DNA of 64,000 nt from Terriglobia bacterium (GTDB lineage Bacteria > Acidobacteriota > Vicinamibacteria > Vicinamibacterales > CAVVIG01): assembly GCA_020073005.1 (NCBI GenBank), contig JAIQFX010000014.1:1-64000 (forward strand). Reading direction: 5' to 3'. The translations under genes were made by a program, and so were the position numbers. Below are positions 4,801 through 19,803 of the stretch, piece after piece. Within the stretch, counting starts at the first letter, position 1. Each line of letters begins with the position of its first letter. Below the pieces are notes generated by a model that was not told the origin of the DNA, ran no database searches, and saw only the letters and a list, made by a program, of their open reading frames with translations.

Positions 4801-5628
4801 TCACGAGGATCGCGGCGCGAGCAGATGCGCGAGCAGACTTGCCGTCACGCGCCGGCGGTACGCGGCCGTGGATCGAATGTCGTCGATCGGCGCGATCTCT
4901 TCGACGAGCAGGCGCTGCGCCTCCGCGATCGACGCGCCGGCGGCGAGCGCCGCTTCAGTGCGCCGCGCGCGGACGACCGTCGGCGCGACGCTGCCGATCG
5001 CGATGCGCGGCGCCTCGCCCGCGACGACCGCCATCACGACTTTCGAGATCGCCTGCGCGGCACGCGTGCCGACCTTGCGGAACGCCTGCCGTCCCCGCAC
5101 CGGCGCGATGTCGAACGACACGATTAATTCGTCCGGTCGCCGGACGGTCTGCCGGTAGCCGGTGTAGAACGCCGTAAACGGCACGCGCCGGGTGCCGCCG
5201 GCGTTGCGCAGGACGACCGTGGCGTCGGCGGCGGCAAGAACCGGCAGGGTGTCGCCGGCCGGTGACGCATTGGCCACGTTGCCACCCAGCGTGCCGCGAT
5301 TCTGAATCTGCACGCCGCCGATCTCGCGCGCCGCGGCCGCCAGCATCGGCAGCCGGCGGCGGACGAGCGACGAGCGGATCAGATCCGTGTGCGTCGCGAG
5401 CGCGCCGATCGACAGCGCGCCGTCGCGCTCCTCGATCGTTTTGAGCGCGTCCAGTTGCCACAGGTCCAGAAAGCGCGTCTCCGCGAGCGTGCCGAAATTG
5501 AGCGCGACGAAGAGATCCGTGCACCCGGCCATCGGCGCCAGCGGTCCCTCGTCGCGCAGCATCGTGAGCGCTTCGTCGAGTGACGACGGCTGGAAGAGCG
5601 TCAACCGTGAAATGGACGACTGCATCAC
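4801..5628 (-). CDS. FAD-binding (medium) subunit of xanthine/CO-dehydrogenase-type hydroxylase
   Basis: CoxM/XdhB-type flavoprotein subunit, 275 aa. It passes electrons from the 2Fe-2S subunit through FAD to an acceptor. The FAD motif is readable as RGTLGGNVANASPAGD (about 115-130), with AGCTDLF earlier for the pyrophosphate loop; the C-terminal CO-dehydrogenase flavoprotein domain follows. It is the last gene of a large, small, medium operon, displaced from the small-subunit gene by the GxxExxY cassette. The substrate may be xanthine, given the allantoinase nearby, but the CoxLMS family is broad. The 100 bp between its stop and the glycosyltransferase start show nothing recognisable. Confidence 0.88.
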   Translation of the reverse strand: MMQSSISRLTLFQPSSLDEALTMLRDEGPLAPMAGCTDLFVALNFGTLAETRFLDLWQLDALKTIEERDGALSIGALATHTDLIRSSLVRRRLPMLAAAAREIGGVQIQNRGTLGGNVANASPAGDTLPVLAAADATVVLRNAGGTRRVPFTAFYTGYRQTVRRPDELIVSFDIAPVRGRQAFRKVGTRAAQAISKVVMAVVAGEAPRIAIGSVAPTVVRARRTEAALAAGASIAEAQRLLVEEIAPIDDIRSTAAYRRRVTASLLAHLLAPRSS

Positions 5629-5634
5629 CGTCTC

Positions 5635-6167
5635 ACGTTTAACCGCGGAGCGCGCAGAAACCGCGGAGTCAGATTAGTCAGGGAAGCCATTCACCTTCCG
5701 CATGATCCCGTGCAGGCTCAGGTTCCGTACATTGAAGTTCAGCATGAGACCAACCCGCATCCCGGAAATCGCCAAGTAGGATATCAACTGCGCTTCATGC
5801 ACCCGTTCGAGCTTCGTGACGGACTTGACCTCGACGATGACCGATTCGTCGACGACAAGGTCGATCCGATAGGCGCAATCGAGCACCACCTCGCCATAGA
5901 CCAGCGGCAGTGGCCGCTGACGGTCCACGACGAGGCCACGAGCCTGCAGCTCAAAACAGAGGCACGCCTCATACGCCGACTCGAGAAGGCCCGGTCCCAG
6001 TTTCCTGTGAGCATCGATGGCCGCCCCGATGATTCGTTCGGTCAGTGCGTTCAGTCGCTCGCCTTCAGGGTTCATCCTGAAGGGCCCATGCAAACGACAG
6101 TGCACCAGGGCACGATCGCATTTTCCTAACAATCTCTGCGTTCTCAGCGCCCTCCGCGGTTAAACGT
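5635..6167. mobile_element. GxxExxY gene cassette bounded by perfect 16-bp inverted repeats
   Basis: ACGTTTAACCGCGGAG at 5635-5650 is the exact inverse complement of CTCCGCGGTTAAACGT at 6152-6167. Between them lies a single GxxExxY gene, with secondary CGCAGA-type repeats just inside each end. The 533-bp unit splits an otherwise compact three-subunit operon: removing it leaves about 54 bp between the 2Fe-2S and FAD subunit genes. A related 80-bp element without a gene lies at 19357-19436. No transposase is present, and no adjacent target duplication was recognised. Confidence 0.6.
5674..6075 (-). CDS. GxxExxY protein
   Basis: Small (133 aa) member of the GxxExxY family, whose name motif is visible as GLLESAY near residue 28. 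The C-terminal half, IDLVVDESVIVEVKSV, resembles the D..ExK core of nuclease-fold proteins. The biological role of the family is not established. The ATG at 6075 (MNPEGERLN) is chosen because conservation starts there; the frame extends to an ATG at 6132, but that stretch looks unrelated. It lies in the same direction as the hydroxylase genes and inside inverted repeats, so it is better viewed as cargo of a mobile cassette than as an operon member. Confidence 0.85.
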   Translation of the reverse strand: MNPEGERLNALTERIIGAAIDAHRKLGPGLLESAYEACLCFELQARGLVVDRQRPLPLVYGEVVLDCAYRIDLVVDESVIVEVKSVTKLERVHEAQLISYLAISGMRVGLMLNFNVRNLSLHGIMRKVNGFPD

Positions 6168-6215: not shown

Positions 6216-6638
6216 TCAGGCTTGCCGGATCGATCGATAGATCGCCGAGTACCCCGTACACCGGCACAGATTGCCGGCGAGTCCAACCTTGATCGCGTTC
6301 AGCGAGGGCTTCGGACCGAGCGCGACGGCCGCGAGGATCATGCCCGGCGTGCAGATGCCGCACTGCGCACCGCCGTGCTCGACGAACGCGCGCTGCAGCC
6401 GATGGCGTCCACCCAGGCCTTCAATCGTCATGAGCCGCGCGCCGTCCGCGTGCGCCGCGGGCACGAGGCACGAGTTCACGGGCGCGCCGTCGAGGAGCAC
6501 GGTGCAGGCGCCGCACTCCCCTTCCCCGCATCCTTCTTTAGTACCCGTCAGCGCGCAGTCCTCGCGCAGCACGTCGAGAAGCCGCTTCAACGGGTGAACG
6601 TTCAGTTCCCTGCGCTTGCCGTTCAGTATCAGACGCAT
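6216..6638 (-). CDS. 2Fe-2S (small) subunit of xanthine/CO-dehydrogenase-type hydroxylase
   Basis: CoxS/XdhC-type ferredoxin subunit, 140 aa. It shows both expected clusters: the plant-type ferredoxin site CGEGECGACTV (about 37-47) with a further Cys in NSCLVPA, and the C-terminal four-helix site CGICTPGM plus CRCTGY. It shuttles electrons from the molybdenum site to FAD. The gene starts 1 nt after the large-subunit stop, so the two are cotranscribed and probably coupled. The medium subunit follows after the inserted cassette. No unusual residues were noticed. Confidence 0.92.
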   Translation of the reverse strand: MRLILNGKRRELNVHPLKRLLDVLREDCALTGTKEGCGEGECGACTVLLDGAPVNSCLVPAAHADGARLMTIEGLGGRHRLQRAFVEHGGAQCGICTPGMILAAVALGPKPSLNAIKVGLAGNLCRCTGYSAIYRSIRQA

Positions 6639-6639
6639 G

Positions 6640-8805
6640 TCATGAAGCCACCGCCATGATCTTCTCGGGCGTCGCAGGAATCTCGCGCAGATCGAATCCC
6701 GCGTGACGCAGTGCGTTGATCACCGCCGGCGCGGGACCGTCGATCGGCATTTCGCCGACGCCCTTGGCGCCCGACGGTCCATGCGGATACGGATTCTCGA
6801 GCAGCACGACCTTCATCGGCGGCGTATCGAGCGAGGTCGGAATGATGTAATTCGTCAGCGTCGCGTTCGTCATGCGACCGTCGCGCATCACGACGTCTTC
6901 GAGCAGCGCGTAGCCGAGCCCTTGCGCGCTGCCGCCCTCGATCTGTCCGAGCGCGAGCGTCGGATGAATCGCCTTGCCGATTTCGTGGACGGTCGTGAAC
7001 GCCGTCGCCTTCACCTCGAACGTGTCGCGATCGACCTCCACTTCGACCACATCGCAGCCCCAGCCGTAGCTGCCGTACGCGTCACCTTTATATAAGGTGT
7101 CGTCCCAGACCATCCCGGCGGGCCGCTCGTACTGCTTCGTGATTGTGAGCGGGCCGAACTTCCGAAGGTACTGGCGCGGCGTGAGGCTGCCGAGCCGCCC
7201 GCGCATCTCCTCGGCGCAGCGCTGCAGGATGCGGCCGACGATCATGCACGTGCGCGACGCGACGGTCGGTCCGCTATCCGGCACTTCGCCCGTATCCGCG
7301 GCGTTGACGTCGATGTGTTCGTACGGCACGCCGAGCGCGTCGGCGACGATCTGCGCGAGCATCGTCCGCGTGCCCTGGCCGATTTCCGTGCTCGCGACGT
7401 GGATCCGCGCGCCGCGCCCGGTGAGCGCGAGCGACGCCTTCGATGCGAGCTTCACTTCGCCCGCGCCCGTAAAGCCGGAGCCGTGGAAGAACAGCGACAA
7501 CCCGATGCCCCGTGCAGGTGTGTGGCGTCCGGCTTCAGCCGGACCATTCGACGATGCCAGCGCGCGCCGCCGCTTCTTGAAATCCGTGCGCTTCACGGCC
7601 TCGCGCAGCACCCGCAGCGCGCTCGAGTCCGCGCCGAGCCGCTGGCCGGTTGCCGTCGTATCGCCTGGCCGCAGCGCGTTGATCTCACGCACGCGCACGG
7701 GATCCAGACCCAGCCGCTCGGCGATCCGATCCATGTGCACGTCGGCGGCGAACTGCGTCTGCGGCGCGCCGAAGCCGCGGAACGCCCCGTTGGGCGGCGT
7801 GTTGGTCATCGTCGCGCGCCCGCGGATGCGGACGTGATCGCAGCGGTACGGTCCCGCGGCGTGAATCATGCCGCGCGACAGCACGACCGCGCTCAGCGTG
7901 GCGTACGCGCCGCCATCGAGCACCGCATCAATATCCATCGCCGTCAACCGGCCGTCGCGCGTGACGCCGGTCCGGTGGCGAATGATCGACGGATGGCGCT
8001 TCGTCGTCGCGAGCATGTCCTCGACGCGGTCGTACACGAGCTTCACGGGCCGCCCCGTCTTCAGGGCGGCCAGCGCCGCGTGCCCGGCAATCATCGACGG
8101 ATACTCTTCCTTCCCGCCGAAGCCGCCGCCGGTCTCCGTTTGAATCACGCGCACCTGCTCGGCGGGCAGTCCGAGCAGAATCATCAGCGCGCGATGCACG
8201 TAGTAGGGACACTGCATCGATCCGTACACGGTGATGCCGTCGTCGCCGCCCGCGACACCGTGTCCTGGCACCGCGATGACGCCGTTCGTCTCGATGTAGA
8301 GCTGCTCCTGCAGGCCAGTGCGATATTCGCCGTCCACGATCACGTCGGCCGCGGCGAACCCTTCGTCGACGTTGCCCTTGTCGATCGCGATCGACTTGAA
8401 CGCGATCGCCGACGTCTCCGGATCGTAGTTCGGCGTCGACGGCCGGTAGTCGATCTGGACCTCCGCGGCGCGCAGCTTCTCCCGGTCCTCGTGCACGAGC
8501 AGCAGAATCGGCTCGGCGACGTGGCGAATCGCGCGCTCGGCCAGGCACGGCTGGTCGTCGTCGATCAGCGCAACGATGTTGCGGCCGGGGATGTCGTGGT
8601 GATCGACGAGCGTGAAGCCGGCGCGATCGCCTTTGAAGCGCACCTTGGCGATCTGACCGGCCGGAATCGTGGAGCGAATCGTGCGGGCGTGCAGGAGGCC
8701 GGGGAACGTCAGGTCGTCGATATAGCGCGCGGCGCCGGTGACCTTGGCGTGGCCTTCCTTGCGGAGGACGTTGCGACCCACCGCTTTCGCCGCGCGTGAA
8801 GCCAT
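6640..8805 (-). CDS. Molybdenum-binding (large) subunit of xanthine/CO-dehydrogenase-type hydroxylase
   Basis: Aldehyde oxidase / xanthine dehydrogenase-type catalytic subunit (721 aa) carrying molybdopterin cytosine dinucleotide. Visible motifs are GGGFGGKEE (about 230), the AFRGFGAPQTQ loop containing the substrate-pocket Arg, STEIGQGT, and the C-terminal KGVGEMP whose Glu is the catalytic base. Physiological substrate is uncertain; xanthine or hypoxanthine is plausible beside allantoinase. A palindromic repeat at 7522-7545 adds an in-frame GPAEAGRH insertion near residue 424. The start ATG is only 8 nt from a TATAAT box, so the mRNA is probably leaderless. Confidence 0.9.
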   Translation of the reverse strand: MASRAAKAVGRNVLRKEGHAKVTGAARYIDDLTFPGLLHARTIRSTIPAGQIAKVRFKGDRAGFTLVDHHDIPGRNIVALIDDDQPCLAERAIRHVAEPILLLVHEDREKLRAAEVQIDYRPSTPNYDPETSAIAFKSIAIDKGNVDEGFAAADVIVDGEYRTGLQEQLYIETNGVIAVPGHGVAGGDDGITVYGSMQCPYYVHRALMILLGLPAEQVRVIQTETGGGFGGKEEYPSMIAGHAALAALKTGRPVKLVYDRVEDMLATTKRHPSIIRHRTGVTRDGRLTAMDIDAVLDGGAYATLSAVVLSRGMIHAAGPYRCDHVRIRGRATMTNTPPNGAFRGFGAPQTQFAADVHMDRIAERLGLDPVRVREINALRPGDTTATGQRLGADSSALRVLREAVKRTDFKKRRRALASSNGPAEAGRHTPARGIGLSLFFHGSGFTGAGEVKLASKASLALTGRGARIHVASTEIGQGTRTMLAQIVADALGVPYEHIDVNAADTGEVPDSGPTVASRTCMIVGRILQRCAEEMRGRLGSLTPRQYLRKFGPLTITKQYERPAGMVWDDTLYKGDAYGSYGWGCDVVEVEVDRDTFEVKATAFTTVHEIGKAIHPTLALGQIEGGSAQGLGYALLEDVVMRDGRMTNATLTNYIIPTSLDTPPMKVVLLENPYPHGPSGAKGVGEMPIDGPAPAVINALRHAGFDLREIPATPEKIMAVAS
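7522..7545. repeat. Palindromic repeat, family A, inside hydroxylase large subunit
   Basis: Carries the core TCCGGCTTCAGCCGGA with GTGGCG on one side. It is read in frame on the minus strand as GPAEAGRH, in a segment just before the SLFFHGSG region. Confidence 0.85.
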
Positions 8806-18366: not shown

Positions 18367-19803
18367 TCACACCAGAGCCACCTGCTCCGGATTCGGCTCG
18401 GCTCAACAGTACCAGGGCTCGTTCAGGTACGGCACCGTCGCGCGATCGCGCGCCGGGCGCGTCGCATCGGGAGCCGGCGGCAACCCGGCCCGCTCGCGCG
18501 CGAGCGCTCGAATCTCGGCAAACACCGCGCGCCGATCGACGTTCAGCCGCATCCCGACGATCGCGGCGATGTCCCGATGGAGCGCGTCGACGCGCGGATC
18601 CGGATGCGACCAGCGGTACGTCAGCGTTGCCGGATCGAATCCGAGAACGTGCCGCCGCATCTCGTCCAACTCGAGCAGCCGCGACCCTTCGGGCACGAGC
18701 AGCCGGATCGCGAGCTGAATCGGCGCGACGTGATCGACAAGCTCTAGATCAGAAATGGTTTCGAGCAGCTCGGCGTACGACGCGAGCGTCAGCCACGGAT
18801 GGAACGCGACGAAAGTCGCGACGATCGTGACGCCCGCGTCACGGCACAGGGCGACGGCCTCGATGAAGTCCGCGCGCGTATGCCCCTTGTCGAACAGCGC
18901 CAGCGTGCGATCGTCGATCGACTCGACGGCACTGGTCACGAACGCGCAGCCCGTGTCCGCCAGGCGCGGCAGCAGATCGCGATGCCGCAGCAGATGCTCG
19001 ATCTTGATCGTGACGTCGTAACTGACCGATGGATGCGCCGCGTGCAGCGCGTCGACGATGCGCATCGCGTGCGTGGGGCCGTTGAAGAAATCCGGGTCGC
19101 CGAAGGTGATGTGACCGGCGCCAGCCGCGACCTGCGCCGCGACGTCCGCGAGCACGACCTCGGGCTGGACGACGCGGAACTGGCCGTTGTAGATCGGCAC
19201 GACCGGACAATGACGGCACAGATGCCGGCAGCCGCGGCTCGTCTCCGTGTAGCCGACCAGCCGTCGCTCGCCATCGGGCATCTGCAGCGACGCGTACTGC
19301 ACGAGCGGCGGCAGACCCGTCCGATCGGGCACGAGAAACTGAAGACGAGGAAGAGGACGTTTAACCGCGGAGATCGCAGAGCTGGAGTCGCACTCTTCCG
19401 TTCTCTGCGAACTCAGCGTTCTCCGCGGTACGACGTCGACGCTCCGCGCGATCGCGGCGAGATCCGCCTCGAACTCGCCGCCCAGCACATCGTCGACACC
19501 GAGCGAGCGCAGCCATTCGGCGTTCAGCGGCGCGTACAGCCCGAACGCACACACACGCGCGGTCGGGTTCAGCGCTCGCGCCTTGGCGATCACCGGCTCC
19601 GCGAGTCGCGTCGCCGTGTGCATCGGCAAGTGAAATGCGATCAGATCCGCCGACACGAGCATCGCGGCGTCGAGGCGACCTCTGTCCTTCGCGACGTCGA
19701 TCGCCGTGACGGTCGATCCCGCTTCGCGCAGCCAGGCCGCGGCCGACGCGAGCCCGAACGGCTGCCGGCCCATCTCGTACGTGCTGATGAGAACGCTGTG
19801 CAT
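18367..19803 (-). CDS. CUAEP-tail radical SAM selenoprotein (UGA at 18403-18405 read as Sec)
   Basis: Radical SAM enzyme with an N-terminal B12-binding-like domain (about 1-120), cluster cysteines Cys192, Cys196 and Cys199 (GCRHLCRHCP), and a TIM-barrel up to about 440. A conventional reading stops at a UGA after NEPWYC, but translation beyond it gives AEPNPEQVALV and then a real UGA. That reconstructs the C-terminal CUAEP signature of a known radical SAM family in which the second position is Cys or selenocysteine. The full product is 478 aa with Sec467. Residues about 127-150 are an in-frame repeat insert. The substrate is unknown; an ATP-grasp protein and YggX follow in the operon. selA/B/C are not in the window. 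Confidence 0.85.
18370..18405 (-). promoter_or_regulatory. Candidate bacterial SECIS hairpin after the Sec UGA
   Basis: Downstream of the UGA the mRNA can fold as follows: GCC (18402-18400) pairs with GGU (18373-18371) and GAGCC (18399-18395) with GGCUC (18379-18375), with one bulged U. Inside, ACC-like pairing leaves a bulged U and a six-base apical loop beginning GG about 15 nt after the UGA. A bulged U and G in the loop match the bacterial pattern; the fold was drawn by hand. Confidence 0.45.
19357..19436. repeat. 80-bp MITE-like element, family B, inside the radical SAM gene
   Basis: Begins ACGTTTAACCGCGGAG, identical to the end of the GxxExxY cassette, and ends CTCCGCGGTACGACGT, an imperfect inverse copy; the centre has CGCAGA / TCTGCG arms. 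No gene inside. It is open in the coding frame and encodes the linker between the B12-binding-like and radical SAM domains. Confidence 0.75.

Follow-up and report, generated by a model that had tools for sequence, protein, structure and literature searches.

This locus raises the question of why a single small gene of the GxxExxY family stands between exact inverted repeats within an operon for a three-subunit hydroxylase. GxxExxY genes are common and unexplained, and one is present in 108 of 297 sampled genomes of the phylum. The cassette occupies 533 bp of the 64,000-nucleotide stretch of DNA that we analysed (the window). In our reading, to which we give a probability of roughly 0.6, the unit is a minimal mobile element, a small PD-(D/E)XK nuclease gene within inverted arms, acting by the mechanism proposed below. 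The features concerned are as follows.

5635 to 6167, no strand: GxxExxY cassette (inverted arms plus one gene), with an orthologous cassette at the same site in G002
5635 to 5668, plus strand: left arm, ACGTTTAACCGCGGAG followed by two more units of about 9 bp, CGCGCAGAA and ACCGCGGAG; 32 of 34 bp identical in G002
6134 to 6167, minus strand: right arm, inverted; ACGTTTAACCGCGGAG, GGCGCTGAG and AACGCAGAG when read on the minus strand
5674 to 6075, minus strand: gene for the GxxExxY protein with a PD-(D/E)XK nuclease fold, as judged from profiles and an AF2 model; dN/dS about 0.10 against G002
4801 to 5628, minus strand: FAD subunit of a molybdenum hydroxylase, downstream neighbour of the cassette
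6216 to 6638, minus strand: 2Fe-2S subunit of the molybdenum hydroxylase, upstream neighbour of the cassette
6640 to 8805, minus strand: molybdopterin-binding (Mo-cofactor) subunit of the molybdenum hydroxylase
19357 to 19436, no strand: gene-free hairpin with arm tips as in the cassette, inside an open reading frame at 18403 to 19803 (minus strand)

The cassette lies between the FeS and FAD genes of the molybdenum hydroxylase operon on the minus strand. The original prediction held that it interrupts this operon, which is correct in that the two genes are separated, but neither of them is broken. The exact 16-bp ends around one GxxExxY gene are present as claimed, with ACGTTTAACCGCGGAG at 5635–5650 (plus) and its exact inverted copy at 6152–6167 (minus), and the cassette thereby has the terminal inverted repeats of a transposable element. 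These ends are merely the tips of arms of about 34 bp, which continue inward as units of about 9 bp (CRCNGAG), CGCGCAGAA ACCGCGGAG on the left and GGCGCTGAG AACGCAGAG on the right when read inward. The gene runs from an ATG at 6075 to a stop near 5674 and encodes 133 aa; a longer frame starts with TTG at 6132. At up to three mismatches ACGTTTAACCGCGGAG has four matches in the window, compared with 0.66 expected in shuffles, only one of 100 of which reached four. The gene-free miniature copy that had been reported elsewhere in the window was recovered at 19357–19436, its left end exact and its right end with three mismatches. This hairpin would add about 25 residues near ...VVPRRTLSSQRTEECDSSSAISAVKRP... 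to an open frame of 466 aa, and is possibly an in-frame palindromic insertion. Four GxxExxY genes were counted in the source genome (5.86 Mb in 179 contigs), all with inverted arms, which are weakest at L002 and differ in type among the four. Genome-wide, the ACGTTTAACCGCGGAG 16-mer occurs 55 times at up to three mismatches against 17 times for the reversed control pattern, and many of the near copies form gene-free inverted pairs about 40–80 bp apart.

The protein of the window scores 140 bits against TIGR04256 (curated cut-off 35 bits), which places it in that family, and 134 bits against PF13366 (PDDEXK_3), its sole Pfam match. H23, G29, E32, Y35, D72, E82, K84 and Q96 are invariant and Y100 is nearly invariant among 69 GxxExxY sequences. 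Profile, fold and residues agree with the PD-(D/E)XK superfamily, whose E / D / ExK / QxxxY residue set, which we take to be RecB/Cas4-like, is present. The AF2 model (pLDDT 92.9, pTM 0.87) was matched best by VIA-align, among solved structures, to SSO0001, presumably a Cas4 (Z 9.2, rmsd 3.4 over 98 residues); other matches were archaeal Hjc (Z 6.5) and further Cas4-like and exonuclease entries at about 6 to 7. Foldseek returned no match to the model at E <= 0.001, and since its E-values are weak, structural kinship stands on the Z of 9.2 and the motifs. No deposited structure for the GxxExxY family was found, only RelE chains at E ~0.1, which we judged to be chance matches. The PF13366 match, the confident Cas4/RecB-like fold and the retained active-site residues bear out the earlier description of the protein as nuclease-like. 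From sequence and model we consider it a minimal nuclease whose active site seems to be intact, its enzymatic activity being inferred. It is plausible, again by inference, that a Holliday-junction-resolvase- or Cas4-like enzyme of this family works on hairpin or cruciform arms.

Arms around GxxExxY genes in general, which the original prediction had proposed to look for, are present at most loci. They were scored as the best inverted match between the flanks of a gene, with offset positions at the same loci as controls. In the genus and phylum sample of 38 loci, 31 exceeded every one of the 74 offset controls and two (L079, L092) had no convincing arms. In a wider sample an inverted-repeat (IR) score of at least 15 was reached by 63 of 79 loci and by 1 of 398 offset controls. 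The wider sample consists of the best-scoring 80 of 538 relatives in a species-level genome collection and is not random; 79 had usable flanks, and they span 17 named phyla, including Methanobacteriota archaea, Planctomycetota, Chloroflexota, Bacteroidota and Acidobacteriota. The common arm word starts at its outer end with a tip like TTCACC or TTAACC, followed in most cases by three CRCNGAG units at 9-bp spacing; 175 of 289 successive-unit spacings within 14 bp are 9 bp and 271 of 289 are 8 to 10 bp. The C, C, G, A and G positions of the unit carry 1.8–2.0 bits and the spacers 0.2–0.45, values to be read with the knowledge that unit positions 1, 3 and 6 were fixed beforehand by the search expression. 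The strict two-unit motif, inverted on both sides, was found at 55 of 79 loci and at none of 396 controls (opposite orientation, 4 of 79). By eye, most of the 24 loci that miss it turn out to have, on one or both sides, an arm that is degenerate or made of four units, and L157 is armless. Paralogues in G132, a genome of another genus of the same phylum, differ in arm type (CACGGAG, CACCAAG, CGCAAAG) while both arms of one cassette agree, and some of its paralogues are without clear arms. Eight plasmid records contain GxxExxY relatives (E 1e-5, one query protein); of six that were read, four have arms, and those of Treponema and Prevotella have none.

Two cassettes of G007 (L302 and L303, the latter running to the contig end) share 86% identity over 451 bp and otherwise differ in their flanks. 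GTAACTACTCAGGT stands outside the left arm in both, and an inverted partner stands outside the right arm of L302, where the pair could form a second, outer inverted repeat.

No gene other than GxxExxY was found inside the cassettes looked at. This bears on whether the gene is a defence or toxin module in a hairpin-bounded cassette, like small toxin–antitoxin cassettes. Rpn proteins (recombination-promoting nucleases) have been reported to be toxin–antitoxin systems against phage (PMC10327210). However, the cassette has no partner gene, and none of 50,697 phage records held a relative of the one query protein (E 1e-5), although the latter result says little about defence. We regard such a module as scarcely credible here.

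Orthologous sites with and without the cassette were compared around G132, which has a cassette between rpoB and rpoC (both named from sequence, without a family search). Among 47 genomes of its genus that were searched, the site was found in most, and 30 loci were fetched. Only G132 and G322 are occupied. The other 28 loci are empty, with a short gap (24–52 bp by alignment ends), no arms and flank identity of about 90–98%. Cassettes of about 83% DNA identity sit elsewhere in G210, G180, G313 and G303, and the rpoB–rpoC site is unoccupied in the first three of these. The 79 kb around rpoB–rpoC in G132 contains 11 arm clusters, and the 80-kb counterparts in four relatives contain one to three isolated single arms each. 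At six gene-free G132 sites with matchable flanks (a seventh could not be compared) the G132 element type is absent from every relative whose flanks matched, which were two to four of the four at each site. In one of these places G226 and G140 instead have about 2.4 kb of other sequence with hairpins of a different, CACCGAT-like arm type. The insertions in G132 mostly come after a stop codon. Arms and gene are jointly present or absent at orthologous sites, which indicates that the element inserts as a unit. The empty sites on which the original prediction had staked its small mobile unit thus exist, in 28 of 30 rpoB–rpoC loci and in 4 of 13 loci at the site of the window, and this contrast of occupied and empty sites supports the claim. 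No target duplication could be shown at rpoB–rpoC or at the six gene-free G132 sites: none was visible, and the intergenic flanks beside the elements, among them the left one at rpoB–rpoC, are too diverged for certainty. In the window the ACGT tips are self-reverse-complementary, so that a duplication and an inverted repeat cannot be distinguished there. No exact junction rule for insertion was found.

The site of the window was surveyed in 27 genomes of the family, and the operon junction was found in 13. A cassette with gene is present in G000, G002, G326 and G327, a single arm in G001, an internally deleted copy with a gene-end remnant between both arms in G337 (the remnant match is weak, E 0.085) and a gene-free hairpin in G339. 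G219, G329, G342 and G325 have no element (gap 2–32 bp), and G338 and G334 have other sequence. A clean empty site was not found inside the genus of the window, where G001 has one arm and G002 the whole cassette, but only at the family level. The orthologous junction of G338 (L228) contains a long array of GGGAACGGAGAGACGA-like tandem repeats. The proteins of G326 and G327 are 67% and 64% identical to that of the window (local matches) and the paralogues in the source genome 46–61%. Since the former are closer than its own paralogues, the cassette at this site is most simply one old insertion, which some lineages have retained while in others it is decayed or missing. The genes of the window and G002 differ by 26 synonymous and 9 non-synonymous changes, and the dN/dS of about 0.10 indicates purifying selection. 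As far as these alignments can tell, the copy in the window is old and inherited, with no sign of recent movement and with its gene still under purifying selection.

A second deletion series was obtained from a cassette site in genus g58, for which 41 genomes were searched and 30 loci fetched. The gene is present at 7 loci (at one over just part of its length), and at 2 loci (L245, L246) remnants of the gene start and/or end lie between the arms. Three loci have gene-free hairpins, three have one arm or a short remnant and three a short gap without arms; 11 contain other sequence and 1 is not comparable. Comparison of loci at the two independent sites thus reveals series in which internal deletion of cassettes leaves gene-free hairpins. 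The direction of this change matters for the possibility that intergenic hairpins came first and were invaded by GxxExxY as a homing endonuclease, with the gene copied into the loop. Homing enzymes of the PD-(D/E)XK fold exist, and gene-free hairpins are more numerous than genes. However, unoccupied rpoB–rpoC loci hold no hairpin (28 of 30), which means that arms and gene arrive together, and gene remnants between arms in L227, L245 and L246 point in the opposite direction, from gene to hairpin. We rejected homing on account of the vacant rpoB–rpoC alleles without arms and the gene remnants in deletion copies, and consider it improbable.

The abundance of hairpins follows the presence of the gene. 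Matches to the hairpin pattern CCRCRGAGN{1,2}CRCRGAG were counted per genome, with the reversed pattern as control. Genomes with the gene (n=108) have a median of 16.5 and a mean of 34.1 matches, and those without it (n=189) a median of 1 and a mean of 1.7; the reversed pattern gave means of 1.5 and 0.9, respectively. At least six matches occur in 73 of 108 gene-bearing and 10 of 189 gene-free genomes (Fisher 2.8e-31, kinship ignored). Because kin genomes are not independent, gene presence was permuted within the 17 families that include genomes of either kind (90 of their 157 genomes carry the gene), after subtraction of two matches per gene copy, and none of 20,000 permutations was as extreme as the observation. 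The exceptions are the 10 gene-free genomes with at least six matches and 30 of the 108 gene-bearing genomes with three or fewer, some of which have other arm types. G218, G110, G264, G266 and G031 have 10–37 CRCNGAG pattern matches and no detected GxxExxY gene; it may have been lost or have escaped detection where an assembly is incomplete, or a relative of the family may stand in for it. Cassette arm type and hairpin type inside a genome, compared by eye, agreed in 14 of 15 genomes for CAC and 2 of 6 for CGC. This comparison, on which we do not rely, used 21 of 33 counted genomes and excluded the three genomes of the window's own genus as well as any genome that lacked arms, had arms of another or of mixed type, or gave too few matches.

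Elements are often found after stop codons and fold into long stems, and in one case a G132 element occupies the position of a GC-rich hairpin in the relatives. These observations would fit arms that are ordinary structural or regulatory hairpins of local origin, such as terminators or RNA-stabilising stems, beside a gene with an unrelated role, for example in repair. Local origin would not, however, give the same CRCNGAG units in different phyla and in both bacteria and archaea, and within taxonomic families abundance goes with the presence of a single gene family (0 of 20,000 permutations). The word common to phyla and domains and the within-family tie to the gene led us to reject this origin, which is highly improbable.

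TIGR02436 genes (S23/IVP-like), presumably encoding a four-helix bundle and not a nuclease, were used as a control of specificity at 30 loci of the same phylum (L272–L301). In 28 of 30 loci these genes, too, have inverted arms of short tandem units on their two sides (IR score at least 15), against 1 of 113 offset controls. Their unit words (GGCAGNN, GTGACNA, CAGGANC, AGTCTNGGA and more) vary by locus, unlike those of GxxExxY, and the strict CRCNGAG motif was found at none of the 30 TIGR02436 loci and at 20 of 30 GxxExxY loci of the phylum. Genomes with TIGR02436 have a median of 26.5 CRCNGAG matches when GxxExxY is present (n=42) and of 1 when it is absent (n=35), and in genomes without GxxExxY the presence of TIGR02436 has no effect on these matches (p 0.32). 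The TIGR02436-free group consists of genomes with handles up to G149, 148 of which are in the pattern table and 149 in the search. The CRCNGAG word therefore belongs to GxxExxY, which favours a protein-specific element. On the other hand, because TIGR02436 cassettes share the arm layout, a nuclease is not required for the architecture and shared host machinery is possible, so that catalysis by GxxExxY is unproven.

A tree of 79 GxxExxY proteins was poorly resolved (45 of 75 inner branches open), and phyla are mixed on it, with 36 changes against a minimum of 16 and 51 in shuffles. On this tree the CAC/CGC arm type needs 13 changes. Shuffling gave 25, with none of 500 shuffles reaching so low a count, and shuffling confined to single phyla gave 22, again with none of 300 reaching it. 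Another arm class, with a TTAC-CRC start, needs 4 changes against 6.8 (0 of 500) and occurs mainly in the clade of Bacteroidota and Anaerolineae. By this comparison, arm type changes together with the GxxExxY protein.

It is possible, though in our view unlikely, that the arms owe their mobility to a shared machinery, of the host or acting in trans (such as hairpin replication or repair, an unrelated transposase or a reverse transcriptase). GxxExxY would then be a passenger or a regulator that selection maintains and that merely recognises or protects the element. Such a role would agree with the like layout of TIGR02436 cassettes around a non-nuclease protein, with the genomes that have hairpins but no GxxExxY gene, and with purifying selection on the gene at the site of the window over family-wide time. 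It is harder to reconcile with the restriction of the strict motif to GxxExxY loci (20 of 30 against 0 of 30) and the missing effect of TIGR02436 (p 0.32), or with an arm type that tracks the GxxExxY tree and cassettes that, where looked at, hold no other gene.

We therefore return to a minimal element that carries its own nuclease gene. A mobile unit is supported; self-movement by the GxxExxY nuclease is likely, but inferred. In the proposed mechanism, the GxxExxY protein would bind the tandem units in the two arms. It would probably do so as an oligomer, and perhaps with the arms folded into a hairpin or cruciform; both points are inferred, without binding data. Its E/D/ExK/QxxxY active site would then cut at the outer ends, for which there are no activity data, and the freed or copied DNA would be joined elsewhere, usually between genes. 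Gene-free hairpins might be moved in trans, as is thought for REPs by RAYT proteins. These last steps are likewise inferences. The link to a particular flanking DNA word, to empty sites and to abundant intergenic hairpins makes a 'hypothetical protein' a testable mobile-element system. If the mechanism holds, it would account for a large class of the repeats seen between genes in environmental genomes. It would also add a PD-(D/E)XK enzyme to the short list of those suspected of moving miniature elements, and would provide a nuclease of very small size whose binding site is long and defined, as yet without binding data.

In open-licence PubMed Central we found no paper with the arm sequences and no literature linking GxxExxY, TIGR04256 or PF13366 to repeats, which does not prove that none exists. 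The closest known system is RAYT/TnpA-REP with its REPs, BIMEs and REPINs, which likewise combines a single gene, inverted palindromic repeats and many gene-free intergenic repeats. In that system the gene is flanked by inverted REPs, repeat abundance is tied to the gene, and repeat and protein co-evolve (PMC2817692, PMC3733652). GxxExxY cassettes also have inverted flanking repeats, though their arms are unlike REPs, and repeat abundance correlates with gene presence as in RAYT/REP. The enzyme differs, being a PD-(D/E)XK protein (PF13366) in GxxExxY and an IS200/IS605-type HUH tyrosine transposase in RAYT; as PF13366 is the only Pfam match, GxxExxY is not a RAYT. The arms are arrays of CRCNGAG units of about 9 bp, whereas a REP is one palindrome of 20–40 bp, and a further difference is that GxxExxY has relatives in archaea and in 17 named phyla. 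At L066, L093, L116, L140, L145, L153 and L267 a complete hairpin, not one arm, stands on either side of the GxxExxY gene, and these loci resemble REP-RAYT-REP units.

MITEs are short elements without a gene that retain the terminal inverted repeats of a gene-bearing parent, from which they arose by internal deletion. GxxExxY cassettes are like the MITE systems of classical insertion sequences in having gene-free deletion derivatives with terminal inverted repeats, and differ from them in the absence of a DDE transposase, in terminal repeats made of iterated units and in that no target duplication has been demonstrated. Rpn / transposase_31 (YhgA-like) proteins, which we take to be PD-(D/E)XK enzymes, resemble GxxExxY in this respect but belong to PF04754 and not PF13366, and we know of no Rpn cassette of inverted arms. 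They have been reported to be linked to DNA mobilisation (PMC5350276). A 23S rRNA intervening sequence with an S23 / four-helix-bundle ORF has been termed a selfish genetic element (PMC4990558). These intervening sequences are tiny single-ORF insertions like the GxxExxY cassette, with an unrelated protein and different arm units. TIGR02436 genes of this phylum also have inverted tandem-unit arms, and this four-helix-bundle parallel suggests a general, overlooked type of minimal cassette. We tentatively propose, at slightly less than even odds, that GxxExxY cassettes are a new superfamily of transposable elements in bacteria and archaea, moved by a single Cas4-like nuclease of about 130 aa that reads CRCNGAG units and seeding MITE-like hairpins. 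They would be one branch of a wider class of single-gene elements with inverted tandem arms, of which TIGR02436 would be a second, each protein family having unit words of its own.
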